This document shows positions 19,682 to 28,826 of a DNA stretch of 39,830 nt, in pieces. The stretch is taken from NCBI GenBank assembly GCA_021820245.1, contig JAKADT010000003.1, forward strand, positions 1-39,830, written 5' to 3'. A program made the translations under genes and the position numbers. The stretch's first letter is position 1, and each line of letters opens with the position of its first letter. This stretch comes from Thermoplasmata archaeon. Lineage in GTDB: Archaea; Thermoplasmatota; Thermoplasmata; Thermoplasmatales; Thermoplasmataceae. The notes under the pieces are model-generated. The model was not told where the DNA came from. It did not search any database and was given only the letters and a program-made list of their open reading frames with translations.

Positions 19682-19975
19682 TTATATTTTCCCAAACTTC
19701 TTCTTTCTCTCTTTGGACGAGTATCCTGTAATGCTTTCCACCAGACTGTTATACATCTTGATTGTCTGTGAGAAATCCTTGAAGTCCGGGTCATTCTCTG
19801 TTTCAATGGCCAGATTCTTTCCACTTATGGATATTTCGAGTCTTTTTATACCCGGAATTGTTAATTCCACGCTCCCCTGTGAAACTTTCACATCGCTGGA
19901 AAACTCCCTGCATCTTGATGCTATGGTTTCCAGAGAAATATCAAAACCTTTCTTTACGGGATAGTCTCTTGCCAT
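19682..19975 (-). CDS. DUF5611-like small archaeal protein
   Basis: A 97-residue soluble protein with the KKGFDISLETIASRCREF start and an alternating beta pattern (VELTIPGIKRLEISISGKNLAIET), ending in a Lys-rich tail (SSKERKKKFGK). It fits my recollection of DUF5611, an uncharacterised family of Thermoplasmata and some methanogens. It starts one base after the stop of the TIM-barrel gene upstream, so the two form an operon. Function unknown. Confidence 0.6.
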   Translation of the reverse strand: MARDYPVKKGFDISLETIASRCREFSSDVKVSQGSVELTIPGIKRLEISISGKNLAIETENDPDFKDFSQTIKMYNSLVESITGYSSKERKKKFGKI

Positions 19976-19976
19976 T

Positions 19977-20999
19977 TTACGCCACCTGCTTTTTCATGGA
20001 AGCTTTTCTTTGGAGCTTCTTTGAAAGTGTCCTTAGGTATATGAGATACATGTATTGAGCATCATGCTCCAGAAGCGGAGAAGACGATATGATTGTTGAA
20101 TCTCCATCATAGTCTATGATCGCCTCTGTAAGGGTTTCAAATTTGAGATCTCCATGCTTTATTGCTGTGAGTTTTGTCTCATTGCTTTCCTCGTATTCAA
20201 CTCCGGAGAATTCCATGTAAAGATCGCCTTTGGAGAATTTTGAAAAATCACTAATAAGTGCCTCAAAGTCCTTTATTTCGATCAATGATCCTCCTGTCAC
20301 CGCGTGCACATGCGGGAAGTTCAATATGGGTTCAATGTCTTTCACTTTTTTTGAAACGGATAGAAGGTCCTGAACTGAACCAAAAATCTCGGTTTTCCCA
20401 GAACATTCCACGCCAATATACGGATACCCCCTAGATGGAGGAAGTTCAGCAGATATCCTGCCATAAAAATCTACTGCTTTTTTAACCGCAGTTTTCCTCT
20501 CTTTTGGATAAAATCCTGTATGCGTTATTGTTCTCTTTGCATGCATTGCTTTCCCGATTATGAGGGACCATTTCAGATGATTGTATGATTTATCGGCCAT
20601 TTCATTATCTGATAACATATCCATGTAGTAAGGTGCATGAATGGAAAGCTGCACGTCGAGTTCCCTGGCCAGTCTACCCCCCTCGTCCAGATCCGCATAG
20701 TTTCTTGCCATGTTCCAGAAGAGTTCCTGAACTATGTCATCCTCCTCAATGATATTATCGATCCCGATGCTATTGTAGTTACCGTCCTCGTCCTGTCTCA
20801 ATATATCAACTATTATGGAAGTATCTACATCCCTCGGTGAAAGTCCATTGTACTCAAGGGCAGGTCTCTCTTCAACATTTACCCTGAGAAGTTGAACTTC
20901 CAGAGCATTTAACCCTAGATTATTAGCATCCTCAACTGATTCTATAAACGTCCTTCCCTTGCTAGTCAGGGGAATTCCCGCAACACCAAATCTGATCAT
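19977..20999 (-). CDS. AP endonuclease 2-like TIM-barrel protein
   Basis: A protein of about 340 residues of the xylose isomerase-like/endonuclease IV superfamily. GVAGIP opens the barrel, LSIHAPYYMDM and ITHTGFYPKER carry metal-ligand histidines, PYIGVECSGK and PILNFPHVHAVTGG follow, and YMEFSGVEY supplies a late glutamate. The residues suggest a metal site as in Nfo-type AP endonucleases, but an 80-residue insertion near the N-terminus (about residues 40-100) and overall divergence leave the reaction open. The start was set at ATG 20999; an ATG at 21020 is also in frame, with TATA-like CTTATATAATT at about 21036-21046. Co-transcribed with the DUF5611-like gene. Confidence 0.7.
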   Translation of the reverse strand: MIRFGVAGIPLTSKGRTFIESVEDANNLGLNALEVQLLRVNVEERPALEYNGLSPRDVDTSIIVDILRQDEDGNYNSIGIDNIIEEDDIVQELFWNMARNYADLDEGGRLARELDVQLSIHAPYYMDMLSDNEMADKSYNHLKWSLIIGKAMHAKRTITHTGFYPKERKTAVKKAVDFYGRISAELPPSRGYPYIGVECSGKTEIFGSVQDLLSVSKKVKDIEPILNFPHVHAVTGGSLIEIKDFEALISDFSKFSKGDLYMEFSGVEYEESNETKLTAIKHGDLKFETLTEAIIDYDGDSTIISSSPLLEHDAQYMYLIYLRTLSKKLQRKASMKKQVA

Positions 21000-21307
21000 A
21001 AATAAATCTAGACCTTCCATGATTACAAATTATATAAGTTTATCAGAGCTTATTCACGCATACAGTTGGGTTACATATGACTTCTTCTGCATGTTGATTC
21101 CAGATTCCTGTGAAAATCCAGTGGACCAAAGTGATGGAAAGCTTAAAAATTCAGATATTGGTATAATTCAAAAATGCAATATCCGCTTACATAATATGGT
21201 CACTACCAAGTCTTAAATATTCTTAAGGCATACGATTGTGATGGTGGTAATTAAAGGGAACGGAATTTCTTGTATTACATCCATTTCGAATAAATCAGGT
21301 GATCAGT

Positions 21308-22654
21308 ATGAATGTAGATCCAAATTTAACAAAATACATGATAAAAGCAAAGATAGCTACGGATGGGGTGGTTGAGAAACCTGACGTCGTAGGTGCCATA
21401 TTTGGCCAGACTGAAGGACTTCTCGGTGACGAACTGGATTTAAGGGATCTCCAGAAGAGCGGAAAGATCGGTAGAATTGAAGTTGAAATAGACAGTAAAA
21501 AAGGAAGGACTGAAGGCTTTGCGCTAATACCTTCCGGCCTGGATCAGGTTGAGAGTTCAATTCTCGCGGCAGCTCTGGAAACCATAGACCGTATAGGACC
21601 ATGCAAGGCAAAGGTTGAGATTGAGAACATAGAAGATGTCAGAATACAGAAGAGACACAAGATCGTAGAGAGGGCTGAAGCGCTTTACAAAAAGATGAGC
21701 GAGAGCGGCAAGAGCGTCAGTGAGAGCATTGTAAACTCAGTTAGGGAAGAGGTTGAGAAAGGAGAGATCATCTCCTATGGAGAGGAAAGGCTTCCAGCAG
21801 GTCCTGCCATAAAGGATTCGGATTCAATAATTGTTGTGGAAGGCAGAAGCGATGTTCTTAATCTTTTAAGGTATGGTATAAAGAATACAATAGCTGTGCA
21901 GGGAACAAACATACCAAAGACTGTCCAGAAGCTTTCAAAGGAGAGAACTGTAACTGTTTTTCTTGATGGTGACAGGGGTGGAGACCTCATTTTGAAGGAG
22001 ATGCTCCAGGTTGCGGAGATAGATTTTGTCTCCAGGGCTCCTCCAGGAACAGAGGTTGAAGAACTCACATATAAGCAGATTGTTAAAGCCTTAAGGTACA
22101 AGACCCCTGTAGAGCAATATCTTTCAATGAGAGGAATGAGTGAGGAACTCAAGGAACTTGTTCAGAAGAATGCAACGGAATCTGGCAAAAATGGAAAGAA
22201 ACAGCCAGATATGCCGGTGGATGAACCAAAACCAGACAGAAGGGATAGACAGGAAGAGAGAAGAGAACAGAGACGCGAGGAAAGGAAAGAGGAGAGAGAA
22301 CCCGAACCTGAGCCACAGAAAGTCGAGGTTGAAGATGTACCTGGTTTTGTGGACCTTCAGAATCCAAAAGCAATAGAGAAAAAGGGAACCATACTTAATG
22401 AGAGCAAACTCACCGAAGTATATGGGGAAGATGGTAAGGCAATTGCCACACTCTCCATATCTGAAACTGTTGAGAAAATACCAGAAATCAAGGACGGAAA
22501 GGCAATAATAACTGGTGGAGTCATTTCACAAAGACTCATAGACACAGCGTTTCAGGCAGGAATCAAAAACATTTACGGGGCAAAAATGGGACACGTGACT
22601 AAGAAGCCTGCGGAGGTCAGAGTGGTTTCATGGGAACACCATATGCAGGCATAG
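21308..22654 (+). CDS. dnaG: DnaG-type primase, archaeal
   Basis: Archaeal DnaG is a TOPRIM protein found with the exosome and able to make RNA primers in some species. An N-terminal archaeal domain precedes the TOPRIM domain, with the catalytic glutamate E178 in VVEGRSDVL and aspartates 220/222 in FLDGDRGGD. A strongly charged linker rich in Arg and Glu (about residues 300-345) leads to a C-terminal domain ending near VVSWEHHMQA. ATG 21308 has a very good Shine-Dalgarno (AGGTGATC just upstream, overlapping the alternative GTG at 21299). The next gene starts within its last 25 bases, so the two are coupled. Confidence 0.94.
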   Translation: MNVDPNLTKYMIKAKIATDGVVEKPDVVGAIFGQTEGLLGDELDLRDLQKSGKIGRIEVEIDSKKGRTEGFALIPSGLDQVESSILAAALETIDRIGPCKAKVEIENIEDVRIQKRHKIVERAEALYKKMSESGKSVSESIVNSVREEVEKGEIISYGEERLPAGPAIKDSDSIIVVEGRSDVLNLLRYGIKNTIAVQGTNIPKTVQKLSKERTVTVFLDGDRGGDLILKEMLQVAEIDFVSRAPPGTEVEELTYKQIVKALRYKTPVEQYLSMRGMSEELKELVQKNATESGKNGKKQPDMPVDEPKPDRRDRQEERREQRREERKEEREPEPEPQKVEVEDVPGFVDLQNPKAIEKKGTILNESKLTEVYGEDGKAIATLSISETVEKIPEIKDGKAIITGGVISQRLIDTAFQAGIKNIYGAKMGHVTKKPAEVRVVSWEHHMQA

Positions 22655-24129
22655 ACCTGAAGAATCTGCCGGATACTTCGTACATCAAGATTCCAAAGAA
22701 TCCTCTGGAGATGGTTATAGGCCAGGATGAGGCCGTAAAAATGGCCAAGATAGCCGCAAAGCAACGCAGGCATCTTCTACTTGTCGGTCCACCTGGTGTA
22801 GGTAAATCAATGATAGCTCAGTCCATATCATTCTATATACCCCAACCTAAGGAGGAGATAAGAGTTGTCCACAACCCTCAGTATCCTGAAAGGCCATTTA
22901 TAGAGGTAAAAAGCAGGGTGCAGATTGTTCAGGAAAAAGAGGAGATGAATATGGTTGAGGGTGAACTCCTTGACCCAAAGGATGTTCCGGTATCAGTTGC
23001 CGAAAGACTCGGTTTCAGGTGCCAGAAATGTGGTTTCTATTCATCCTCTGCAGAAAATACCTGCCCCAACTGCAACAACCCCAAGGTTCAGAATGTGACA
23101 CAGGGACCATTTGGAGATGTATTCAATGTAATCGGTGCTGCATTTGGAGTCCAGAACAATACAGAAAAAGTAACCTCAACGAGAAAGATAGGGGAAAGAG
23201 AGGAGGTCATAGTCTATGAAAGATATAACGATCGAATCAGGGTCCTGGATGAAAAAACTCTCGAAAGAAGAAGAAAAATAGAGAAAAAGAGTCCCAGCAA
23301 GATCATTGTCCCTATTGACAGGAAACCTTTCATACTTGCAACCGGAGCGAGCGAAACGGAACTTCTTGGAGATGTCAGGCATGATCCCTATGGTGGTCAT
23401 CCCCAGCTTGGAACACTTCCTTACGAGAGGGTTATAGCCGGGTCTGTGCATGAAGCACACGAGGGGGTCCTTTTCATAGACGAGATTTCACATCTTGGCA
23501 ACCTTCAGAGATTTATACTGACAGCGATGCAGGAGAGACACTTTCCCATCACTGGAAGAAATCCGCAGAGCGCCGGGGCCAGTGTAAGGGTTGATAACGT
23601 ACCTGCTGACTTCATACTTGTTGCGGCCTGCAATATCAATGATCTTCAATATATTCTCAGCCCGCTGAGATCAAGGATTGTAGGAAGTGGTTACGAGATA
23701 CTCATGCAGGTAACAATGCCGGATAATCCTGCAAATAGGATGAAATATCTTCAGTTCATTGCGCAGGAGATCATAATGGACGGAAAGATACCGCAGATGT
23801 CCATTGAGGCTGCAAATCTCATAGTTGAGGAGGGCAAACGCCGTGCGGGTGAAATAGACCGCAAAGAGAACGCCCTTACCCTGAGACTTCGGGAACTTGG
23901 AGGGCTTGTAAGAGCTTCAGGCGATATTGCAGTGGGTGATGAGAGAAATCTTATTGAAAAAAGCGATGTACTTGAGGCTTTGAAGACCTATCTGCCTGTG
24001 GAAGAAAAAATAAAGAAGTATTACGGAAATATGGGAGCTGCACTGTCCTCGGAGAATACACTCTCCCAGAAAGGAGAGGAATATTACTCAAACTACCATA
24101 ATTTCAGGCAGGATCGTTCATACGACTGA
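22630..24129 (+). CDS. LonB-like AAA+ ATPase with zinc ribbon and without protease domain
   Basis: A 499-residue ATPase of the archaeal LonB group. Walker A is GPPGVGKS (53-60) and Walker B is VLFIDEIS (D284/E285). LonB-type LLGDVRHDPYGGHPQLGT, sensor-1 ACNIN, an arginine finger in PLRSRI, and RLRELGGLVRASGDIA in the lid are all present. LonB normally has membrane helices inserted in the ATPase domain and a Ser-Lys peptidase at the C-terminus. Here the insertion carries two CxxC pairs (131/134, 145/148) with no membrane helix, and the protein ends after the lid plus a 40-residue polar tail. It may act as a remodelling ATPase. It overlaps dnaG, which suggests a shared role, but none is established. 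Confidence 0.82.
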   Translation: MGTPYAGIDLKNLPDTSYIKIPKNPLEMVIGQDEAVKMAKIAAKQRRHLLLVGPPGVGKSMIAQSISFYIPQPKEEIRVVHNPQYPERPFIEVKSRVQIVQEKEEMNMVEGELLDPKDVPVSVAERLGFRCQKCGFYSSSAENTCPNCNNPKVQNVTQGPFGDVFNVIGAAFGVQNNTEKVTSTRKIGEREEVIVYERYNDRIRVLDEKTLERRRKIEKKSPSKIIVPIDRKPFILATGASETELLGDVRHDPYGGHPQLGTLPYERVIAGSVHEAHEGVLFIDEISHLGNLQRFILTAMQERHFPITGRNPQSAGASVRVDNVPADFILVAACNINDLQYILSPLRSRIVGSGYEILMQVTMPDNPANRMKYLQFIAQEIIMDGKIPQMSIEAANLIVEEGKRRAGEIDRKENALTLRLRELGGLVRASGDIAVGDERNLIEKSDVLEALKTYLPVEEKIKKYYGNMGAALSSENTLSQKGEEYYSNYHNFRQDRSYD

Positions 24130-27059: not shown

Positions 27060-28826
27060 ATGAGACTATCGTATCTTCTTGAGATGGAAAACCCGGAATC
27101 CCACTTCTTTAAAGTGACAATGAATGTAGAAGACTATTCAGAGGAGTCAATGTCGGTTACCATGCCTGCATGGACACCTGGATCGTATGAAATTCTTGAT
27201 TTTTCAAGACACGTGAGAAAAATAAAGGCAGTTAACTCTGCAGGGGAATCCATTGAACTTTCAAAGAAGGATAAATCCACCTGGAAACTTGCCAATGGTA
27301 AGTCAAGAGATATCAGGATCACTTACGAGGTGTTTGCTCACGATCTATCGGTACATACAAGCCATCTGGATTCATCTCATGGTTACCTTAATGGCACAAA
27401 CATATTCCTCTATATCGAGGGATACAAGGACCAGACCGCAGAACTCACAATAAAACCCTGGAAAGACTGGAAGGTTTCCACTGGACTTGAGAAGGTTGGA
27501 GACTTTAAATACAGAGCAACTAATTTCGATATACTGGTTGATTCACCGATTGAGATAGGTACCCACAGGAGCCTCTTTTTCAACGTCGATGGCAAGGAGC
27601 ACGAAATAGTTCTTTACGGACACGGAAACGAGAATGAGGACAAGATTAAAAGTGATATCCAGAAGATAGTTGAATCCTTCCTAAAGATCTTCGGGCATCT
27701 TCCTTACAAAAGATACGTCTTCATATTTCATCTACTTTCTGAGGAAGACAGCGGTGGAGGACTTGAACACCTGAACTCCACCACAATTGATGTGGACAGG
27801 TTCATATTTTCACCCTTTGAAAGCTACAAGAAGTTCCTCAATGTAGTTTCACATGAATATTTCCACCTGTGGAACGTCAAGAGAATAAGGCCGGCAGAGC
27901 TTGGTCCTTTCAACTATAAGGAGGAAAATTACACATCCCTGCTCTGGATGGCAGAGGGATTTACCAACTACTATGGAAGAATGATGCTTCTCAGATCCGG
28001 GCTTATTTCCCAGAAAGATTTCTTCAAGCATTTCATGGAGACGGTGAGATTCTATGAGATGCAGCCTGGGCGACTGAACACTTCAGCCTATGAATCCTCT
28101 TTTGACTCATGGATAAAGCTCTACAGACCTGGACCAAATAATTTCAACAGTTATATATCGTACTACACCAAGGGAGACATGCTTGGGTTTCTCCTGAATG
28201 TGAGGATCATTGAAGCGACAAAGGGACAAAAGAGTCTTGACGATCTCTACCGGCATCTCTATGATAAATACAATAAGGATGGAAAGGGATATACTGAGAA
28301 GGATCTGCTTCTAGCGCTCAAAGAGATTACAGGAATGGACTTCACAGATTTTTATACGAGATTTATCAAGTCAACAGAACCCATCGATTTCCAGTCCGAA
28401 CTTGATAAACTCGGCGTAGTATTGAAGAAGATCTTTAAGGACGCAGACGAATTTCCAGAGGGTTCTCCATACATGGGATCAATATTCAGGAATGGATCTA
28501 AGAATACTGTGGAGACCGTGATCGAGGGTTCTCCGGCGTTCAAGGCAGGGCTGAGTCCTGGTGACGAGGTTGTTGCAATCAACGGTTACAGGTTTTCCGA
28601 CAGATTCATGAAACCCATCAGGGAAGATTACAGGAAGCTTAAGGTTGAAAAACTCACTGATTTCAGATCAGGGGATAGAATAAAGCTTCATGTTTTCAGG
28701 AAGGGTATCCTGGTGGAACTGGAACTGACGCTTGGTGATCCTGTCTGTGATCTCTACGAGGCAGTGGTCAGGGATGAACCCACAGAAAGACAGAAACTTT
28801 TCCTTGAAAAATTCCTCAAGGGCTGA
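27060..28826 (+). CDS. M61-family (glycyl) aminopeptidase with PDZ domain
   Basis: A 588-residue zinc metallopeptidase. An N-terminal beta domain (about residues 1-165) precedes the catalytic domain with HEYFH (265-269) and the third ligand glutamate E299 in MAEGFTNYY. GGGLEHLNS is the substrate-binding loop, equivalent to GAMEN in M1 enzymes. A PDZ domain (about residues 450-560) contains VIEGSPAFKAGLSPGDEVVAI. This order fits MEROPS family M61. No signal peptide is evident, so it probably acts on peptides in the cytosol, consistent with peptide-eating Thermoplasmatales (inference). No operon partner. Confidence 0.9.
   Translation: MRLSYLLEMENPESHFFKVTMNVEDYSEESMSVTMPAWTPGSYEILDFSRHVRKIKAVNSAGESIELSKKDKSTWKLANGKSRDIRITYEVFAHDLSVHTSHLDSSHGYLNGTNIFLYIEGYKDQTAELTIKPWKDWKVSTGLEKVGDFKYRATNFDILVDSPIEIGTHRSLFFNVDGKEHEIVLYGHGNENEDKIKSDIQKIVESFLKIFGHLPYKRYVFIFHLLSEEDSGGGLEHLNSTTIDVDRFIFSPFESYKKFLNVVSHEYFHLWNVKRIRPAELGPFNYKEENYTSLLWMAEGFTNYYGRMMLLRSGLISQKDFFKHFMETVRFYEMQPGRLNTSAYESSFDSWIKLYRPGPNNFNSYISYYTKGDMLGFLLNVRIIEATKGQKSLDDLYRHLYDKYNKDGKGYTEKDLLLALKEITGMDFTDFYTRFIKSTEPIDFQSELDKLGVVLKKIFKDADEFPEGSPYMGSIFRNGSKNTVETVIEGSPAFKAGLSPGDEVVAINGYRFSDRFMKPIREDYRKLKVEKLTDFRSGDRIKLHVFRKGILVELELTLGDPVCDLYEAVVRDEPTERQKLFLEKFLKG

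Follow-up and report, generated by a model that had tools for sequence, protein, structure and literature searches.

In archaeal LonB, a protein unfoldase, the AAA+ ring opens straight onto the enzyme's own peptidase ring. The 20S proteasome, for which Thermoplasma is a classic model organism, is the protease known to read docking-type tails. In such HbYX tails the terminal carboxyl group contacts K66 of the alpha subunit, the tyrosine and the last residue bind, and opening of the gate is driven by the hydrophobic residue (PMC12352868). Pyrococcus furiosus PbaB needs its Gly-Tyr-Leu end for binding and activating the 20S particle, whereas PbaA has the motif and yet does not bind mature 20S (PMC3605417). 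On the side of RNA turnover, DnaG has been identified as a subunit of the exosome cap in other archaea (PMC4227792), and a link between the archaeal exosome and the proteasome was predicted from gene order (Koonin et al. 2001, as cited in PMC3095777).

In the window, by which we mean the whole stretch of 39,830 nucleotides analysed here, a gene overlapping dnaG codes for an ATPase that shares with archaeal LonB (TIGR00764; 3k1j, 4zpx) its AAA+ core, its fold and the position of an aromatic loop residue. It departs from LonB in lacking two features that define that enzyme, the Ser-Lys peptidase domain and the membrane-spanning insertion, in carrying a zinc ribbon, in forming a separate clade and in being linked to dnaG. 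Like PAN, Cdc48/VAT and AMA it is expected to form an AAA+ ring of the unfoldase type and has an x-Tyr/Phe-x ending of the same range; unlike them, it belongs to a different AAA+ branch and bears the zinc ribbon, with no OB/coiled-coil or Cdc48 N-domain recognised. The archaeal PAC2-type proteasome activator PbaB has a Gly-Tyr-x C-terminus resembling that of the ATPase, with a docking role demonstrated for PbaB itself (PMC3605417), but it is no ATPase and its fold is unrelated. ComM/YifB and the MCM-type helicases represent a related AAA+ branch, but with only weak fold similarity and a different architecture.

A LonB-like core with a zinc ribbon and no peptidase

The best NCBIfam model for the ORF is that of LonB (E 1.2e-100), whose score of 338 bits lies under the curated cut-off of 516.6 bits and which matches in two stretches, leaving the region between them unmatched. 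The best PDB matches are likewise to Thermococcus onnurineus Lon (3k1j, E 3e-82; 4zpx, E 3e-80), with the alignment confined to the ATPase part (residues 15-93 and 230-465), and identity to archaeal LonB is about 50% over residues 230-462. The best Pfam match is Mg_chelatase, and the PAN model TIGR01242 is absent among the 25 best NCBIfam matches. The AlphaFold model (mean pLDDT 84, the last 11 residues below 50) is closest to T. onnurineus Lon, with a TM score of 0.88-0.90 normalised to the length of 4zpx, where ComM and MCM reach only about 0.2-0.3 by target length; by query length the scores are about 0.16-0.30 for ComM and MCM against 0.6 for LonB.

Table 1. Features of the dnaG-ATPase locus (window coordinates; residues numbered in the ATPase)
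Feature	Position	Strand	Remarks
dnaG, upstream partner	21299..22654	+	NCBIfam match; 25-nt overlap with the ATPase ORF (22630-22654)
Protease-less zinc-ribbon LonB-like AAA+ ATPase	22630..24129	+	499 aa, ATG start; coordinates include the stop codon
Walker A GPPGVGKS, residues 53-60	22786..22809	+	G56, G58, K59 and S60 invariant in 59 members
Insertion in place of the LonB membrane insertion, residues ~94-229	22909..23316	+	Unaligned to LonB; hydropathy
Zinc ribbon C131-x2-C134-x10-C145-x2-C148	23020..23073	+	Four Cys invariant, four phyla
Loop HDPYGGH, candidate pore loop, residues 251-257	23380..23400	+	H251, D252, P253 and G255 invariant
Walker B LFIDE, residues 281-285	23470..23484	+	L281, D284 and E285 invariant
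N335 (sensor 1 candidate) to R347/R349 (arginine finger candidates)	23632..23676	+	Invariant
R421 (sensor 2 candidate)	23890..23892	+	Invariant
C-terminal tail, residues 467-499, where the peptidase domain would be	24028..24126	+	Low-confidence end in the AlphaFold model
C-terminal Ser-Tyr-Asp, HbYX-like motif	24118..24126	+	Penultimate aromatic in 166/167 members, three phyla

Conservation scored across 59 aligned members of the four phyla bears out the earlier note's description of an intact LonB-type ATPase core: based on the invariance of the Walker A and B motifs and of the candidate sensor and arginine finger residues N335, R347, R349 and R421, the protein is expected to be an active ATPase. 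Furthermore, Y254 of the candidate pore loop is kept in at least 90% of these members and aligns to a phenylalanine of LonB. That a zinc ribbon has taken the place of the membrane insertion, as also claimed in that note, agrees with the conservation of all four cysteines and with a 19-residue hydropathy that peaks at 1.27, as against about 1.8-3.0 in canonical LonB insertions; by hydropathy there is no transmembrane segment, in keeping with the soluble AAA+ machine that had been envisaged. The zinc ribbon probably helps to recognise substrates or partners.

The absence of the Ser-Lys peptidase domain is a family trait, with the peptidase serine motif GDSAS present in none of the 237 family sequences. 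The same motif was found in 20 of the 21 loci read for LonB, the one in the window's own genome included, the single exception (L263) probably being a wrong ORF; a complete canonical LonB with GDSAS lies on another contig of that genome. A protease domain encoded separately nearby would, according to the earlier note, have spoken against its interpretation, and no Lon peptidase gene was seen. The M61-family glycyl aminopeptidase with a PDZ domain that lies 3 kb downstream of the ATPase gene (27060-28826, + strand) belongs to another family and is not a generally conserved neighbour.

We then examined the distribution of the family, with phylum names other than that of the window assigned in this analysis and genomes of other phyla reached through an archaeal histone as bait. 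Of the 390 Thermoplasmatota genomes sampled, 148 gave a match at E <= 1e-90; at thresholds of E <= 1e-70 to 1e-75, used outside this phylum, matches were recovered in 19 of 120 genomes of Methanobacteriota (the phylum of Methanobacteriaceae), 22 of 29 of Altiarchaeota (the phylum of Altiarchaeales) and 64 of 146 of Micrarchaeota (the phylum of Micrarchaeum). No family member was found in the 148 genomes of Halobacteriota (the Archaeoglobus phylum), in which a looser threshold with the same query did find LonB. The zero among the 151 Thermoproteota genomes (the Bathyarchaeota phylum) rests on the strong matches of the query elsewhere, because the same query found not even LonB in the few genomes of that phylum that it covered at this point; Thermococci, Methanococci and Asgard archaea are poorly represented in the sampling. 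In a maximum-likelihood tree the family and LonB are fully separate (support 100/100), on branches of 0.96 and 0.85 changes per column, and the members from Thermoplasmatota, Methanobacteriota and Altiarchaeota fall into a single group per phylum, with Micrarchaeota basal if the root is placed between the family and LonB. Based on this separation, we regard the family as an ancient paralogue that shares an ancestor with LonB, and not as the product of a local domain loss. Many hosts of the ATPase carry canonical LonB too, and LonB without the ATPase is common.

Linkage to dnaG

The upstream gene is an archaeal dnaG (NCBIfam 525 bits, cut-off 300). Counting as linked a dnaG that precedes the ATPase gene on the same strand by no more than 450 nt, we found the association in 121 of 124 Thermoplasmatota loci, overlapping in 60 of them, the exceptions being two loci that show no dnaG (one of these, L071, at a contig edge) and one with a 1-kb gap. 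It is likewise present in all 19 Methanobacteriota loci, in at least 12 of 25 in Altiarchaeota and in at least 9 of 50 in Micrarchaeota, the last two being minimum figures for any locus that is short. The linkage is far beyond chance. Its lack of conservation in relatives was the other outcome that would have refuted the earlier note; neither outcome was observed, save that the linkage is incomplete in Altiarchaeota and Micrarchaeota. The note's idea that the protein could work in replication, primer handling or RNA decay has the linkage as its sole basis and is not established.

Other genes around the ATPase, those downstream included, change between lineages, which leaves dnaG and the ATPase as the conserved unit; a wider operon beyond dnaG was rejected on account of this variation downstream. 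A function in a defence system was also rejected, as PADLOC returned only weak AAA+ matches. DnaG itself is present in many genomes without the ATPase. Divergent from dnaG in the window (19682-21020, - strand) are genes for a DUF5611 protein and a xylose-isomerase-like TIM-barrel protein, both of which recur in the same position in Thermoplasmataceae. Some relatives have a canonical LonB 1-10 kb from dnaG, and in one Thermoplasmatota genome without the ATPase (L150) it follows dnaG at a distance of about 1 kb. In three further ATPase-less genomes, of the same order (L144, L145, L147), dnaG stands beside a proteasome beta gene and an FttA/aCPSF1-type gene on the opposite strand, an assignment checked with Pfam in one of the three; we take this arrangement as circumstantial support for a link between exosome and proteasome.

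The C-terminal tail

Where LonB continues into its peptidase, the ATPase ends in a tail that is variable in sequence and length save for its extremity, and neither this motif nor the spread of the family over four archaeal phyla figured in the earlier note. When the ungapped sequences are aligned by their C-terminal ends, Tyr or Phe occupies the penultimate position in 122 of 123 Thermoplasmatota, 19 of 19 Methanobacteriota and 25 of 25 Altiarchaeota members, as against an aromatic residue at the same position in 5.8-8.4% of neighbouring ORFs. Position -3 is mostly Gly, Ser or Met and the last residue is free, giving endings of the forms GYx, SYx and MFx in the three phyla. Altiarchaeota copies unlinked to dnaG keep the Tyr/Phe motif. 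Its being tied to the free carboxyl end is the form expected of a docking tail; hence, we propose that the tail docks on a second machine, for which the 20S proteasome is the likeliest candidate.

20S genes were found in all 80 genomes checked, Micrarchaeota included. Moreover, the endings of the ATPase overlap the range seen in the PAN (MFA, MFG, MFH, MYH, LYQ, LYG, IYL) and Cdc48/VAT proteins of the same organisms or phyla (Thermoplasmataceae VAT: LYQ, LYL, LYN; Micrarchaeota Cdc48: MYR, GYG, GYD, SYS, QYA). In one family (f9) and several genomes of another (f8) PAN and the ATPase both end in Met-Phe-x, but the match is loose, as many lineages pair a PAN ending in MFA with an ATPase ending in GYx. 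Replacement of PAN by the ATPase was rejected as a general rule, since only Thermoplasmataceae fit it: they have no PAN, whereas most of the other families with the ATPase do.

Micrarchaeota (L308-L356) lack the penultimate Tyr/Phe and instead end in Glu-Val/Ile/Thr-x, with the Glu conserved. An explanation by loss of the tail where the 20S is missing was rejected, as Micrarchaeota possess the 20S particle. Docking may thus have arisen in the common ancestor of the three remaining groups, or Micrarchaeota may have lost or altered it, or else the tail has a different binding partner.

A putative unfoldase between exosome and proteasome

The simplest reading of an intact LonB-type core combined with an aromatic loop residue, the lack of a peptidase and a free tail of docking type is that of an unfoldase feeding another protease. 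Accordingly, in a reading to which we assign a probability of roughly 45%, the ATPase would be a LonB-derived unfoldase in which docking to the 20S proteasome has replaced the enzyme's own protease, with ties to DnaG and the exosome. The protein would be a soluble AAA+ polypeptide unfoldase, of an ancestry shared with LonB and presumably forming a ring, from which in Thermoplasmatota, Methanobacteriota and Altiarchaeota free C-terminal tails would emerge at the point where LonB continues into its peptidase. These tails, ending in Gly/Ser/Met, then Tyr/Phe, then any residue, might insert into the pockets between the 20S alpha subunits, and the docked ring would thread substrates into the separate protease. 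As DnaG belongs to the exosome cap, the pairing with dnaG would place the ATPase at or near the RNA-degrading exosome, where it could couple protein and RNA turnover. More tentatively, the family might rank with PAN, Cdc48 and AMA as an additional class of archaeal proteasomal ATPase, one that is related to LonB, has exchanged its own protease for a 20S-docking tail and is co-expressed with DnaG so that aberrant RNA is destroyed together with its protein products.

In favour of the proteasome-docking unfoldase are the invariant ATPase residues, the missing peptidase, the motif in three phyla, the endings shared with known proteasomal ATPases, the 20S genes in every genome checked and the dnaG linkage in four phyla. 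Against it, Micrarchaeota have their deviant ends although the 20S is present and their Cdc48 keeps Y-x ends; Gly or Ser at -3 is a weak match to the strict HbYX motif, the window's own copy ending in Ser-Tyr-Asp; the linkage is to dnaG and not to proteasome genes; and the motif alone is no proof, as PbaA illustrates (PMC3605417).

Alternatively, the ATPase may be a stand-alone chaperone, with no part for the proteasome: its zinc ribbon or its tail would contact DnaG or the exosome cap, and ATP would power the removal of proteins from RNA or the loading, unloading or remodelling of DnaG. DnaG is an exosome subunit (PMC4227792), and dnaG is the only conserved neighbour, overlapping in those 60 Thermoplasmatota loci and linked in all four phyla, even in members that have no Y-x tail; in single lineages there are RNA-related neighbours as well, such as the RNA-ligation genes for archease and RtcB immediately downstream in one Altiarchaeota locus (L253, in the order dnaG, ATPase, archease, RtcB) and a CLP1-type polynucleotide kinase gene next to an Altiarchaeales copy that has no adjoining dnaG (L251). 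We nevertheless consider this rather unlikely, in that DnaG occurs in many genomes without the ATPase and a motif of the proteasome-docking type at the free C-terminus, retained even in copies away from dnaG, would go unexplained.

A proposed replicative role of DnaG (PMC2643942) invites the further thought that the two proteins act on DNA at replication forks or in recombination, the ATPase being a helicase or clamp-type AAA+ motor of the MCM/ComM kind. Weak similarity to MCM, RuvB and ComM is compatible with this, as are the second, dnaG-unlinked copies of four Altiarchaeota loci (L292, L301, L303, L304), which immediately precede a Gins51-type gene and the gene of ribosomal protein L44E, and the Methanobacteriota copies, which sit upstream of a tyrosine recombinase gene. 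The fold and sequence are, however, far closer to LonB than to any helicase, no DNA-binding domain is recognised apart from the zinc ribbon, and such replication neighbours are lineage-specific, so that we judge a role of this kind improbable. Least probable of all, and in our estimate only a slim prospect, is that the ATPase regulates the full-length LonB of the same cell, for instance in mixed rings or by delivering substrates. Many hosts do possess both proteins, and in some relatives LonB is found within 1-10 kb of dnaG, but the long branches separating the two families and the lack of a membrane segment make mixed rings unlikely, and LonB frequently occurs where the ATPase does not.

We found no paper in the open-licence literature on a protease-less zinc-ribbon LonB or on its linkage with dnaG. 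Even without a proteasome role, the ATPase represents a LonB-related AAA+ family, easily mistaken for LonB, whose function is not described in the literature searched and which is closely tied to dnaG; depending on the phylum, between one sixth and three quarters of the genomes sampled in the four archaeal phyla carry it. Returning to the proteasome-docking unfoldase, this family may be a proteasome motor that has gone unrecognised. If so, what was once a self-contained membrane protease would now cap another protease, and Thermoplasma, which lacks PAN, would gain a second proteasomal unfoldase besides VAT. Likewise, the old proposal of a link between the archaeal exosome and the proteasome would acquire a concrete, testable protein.
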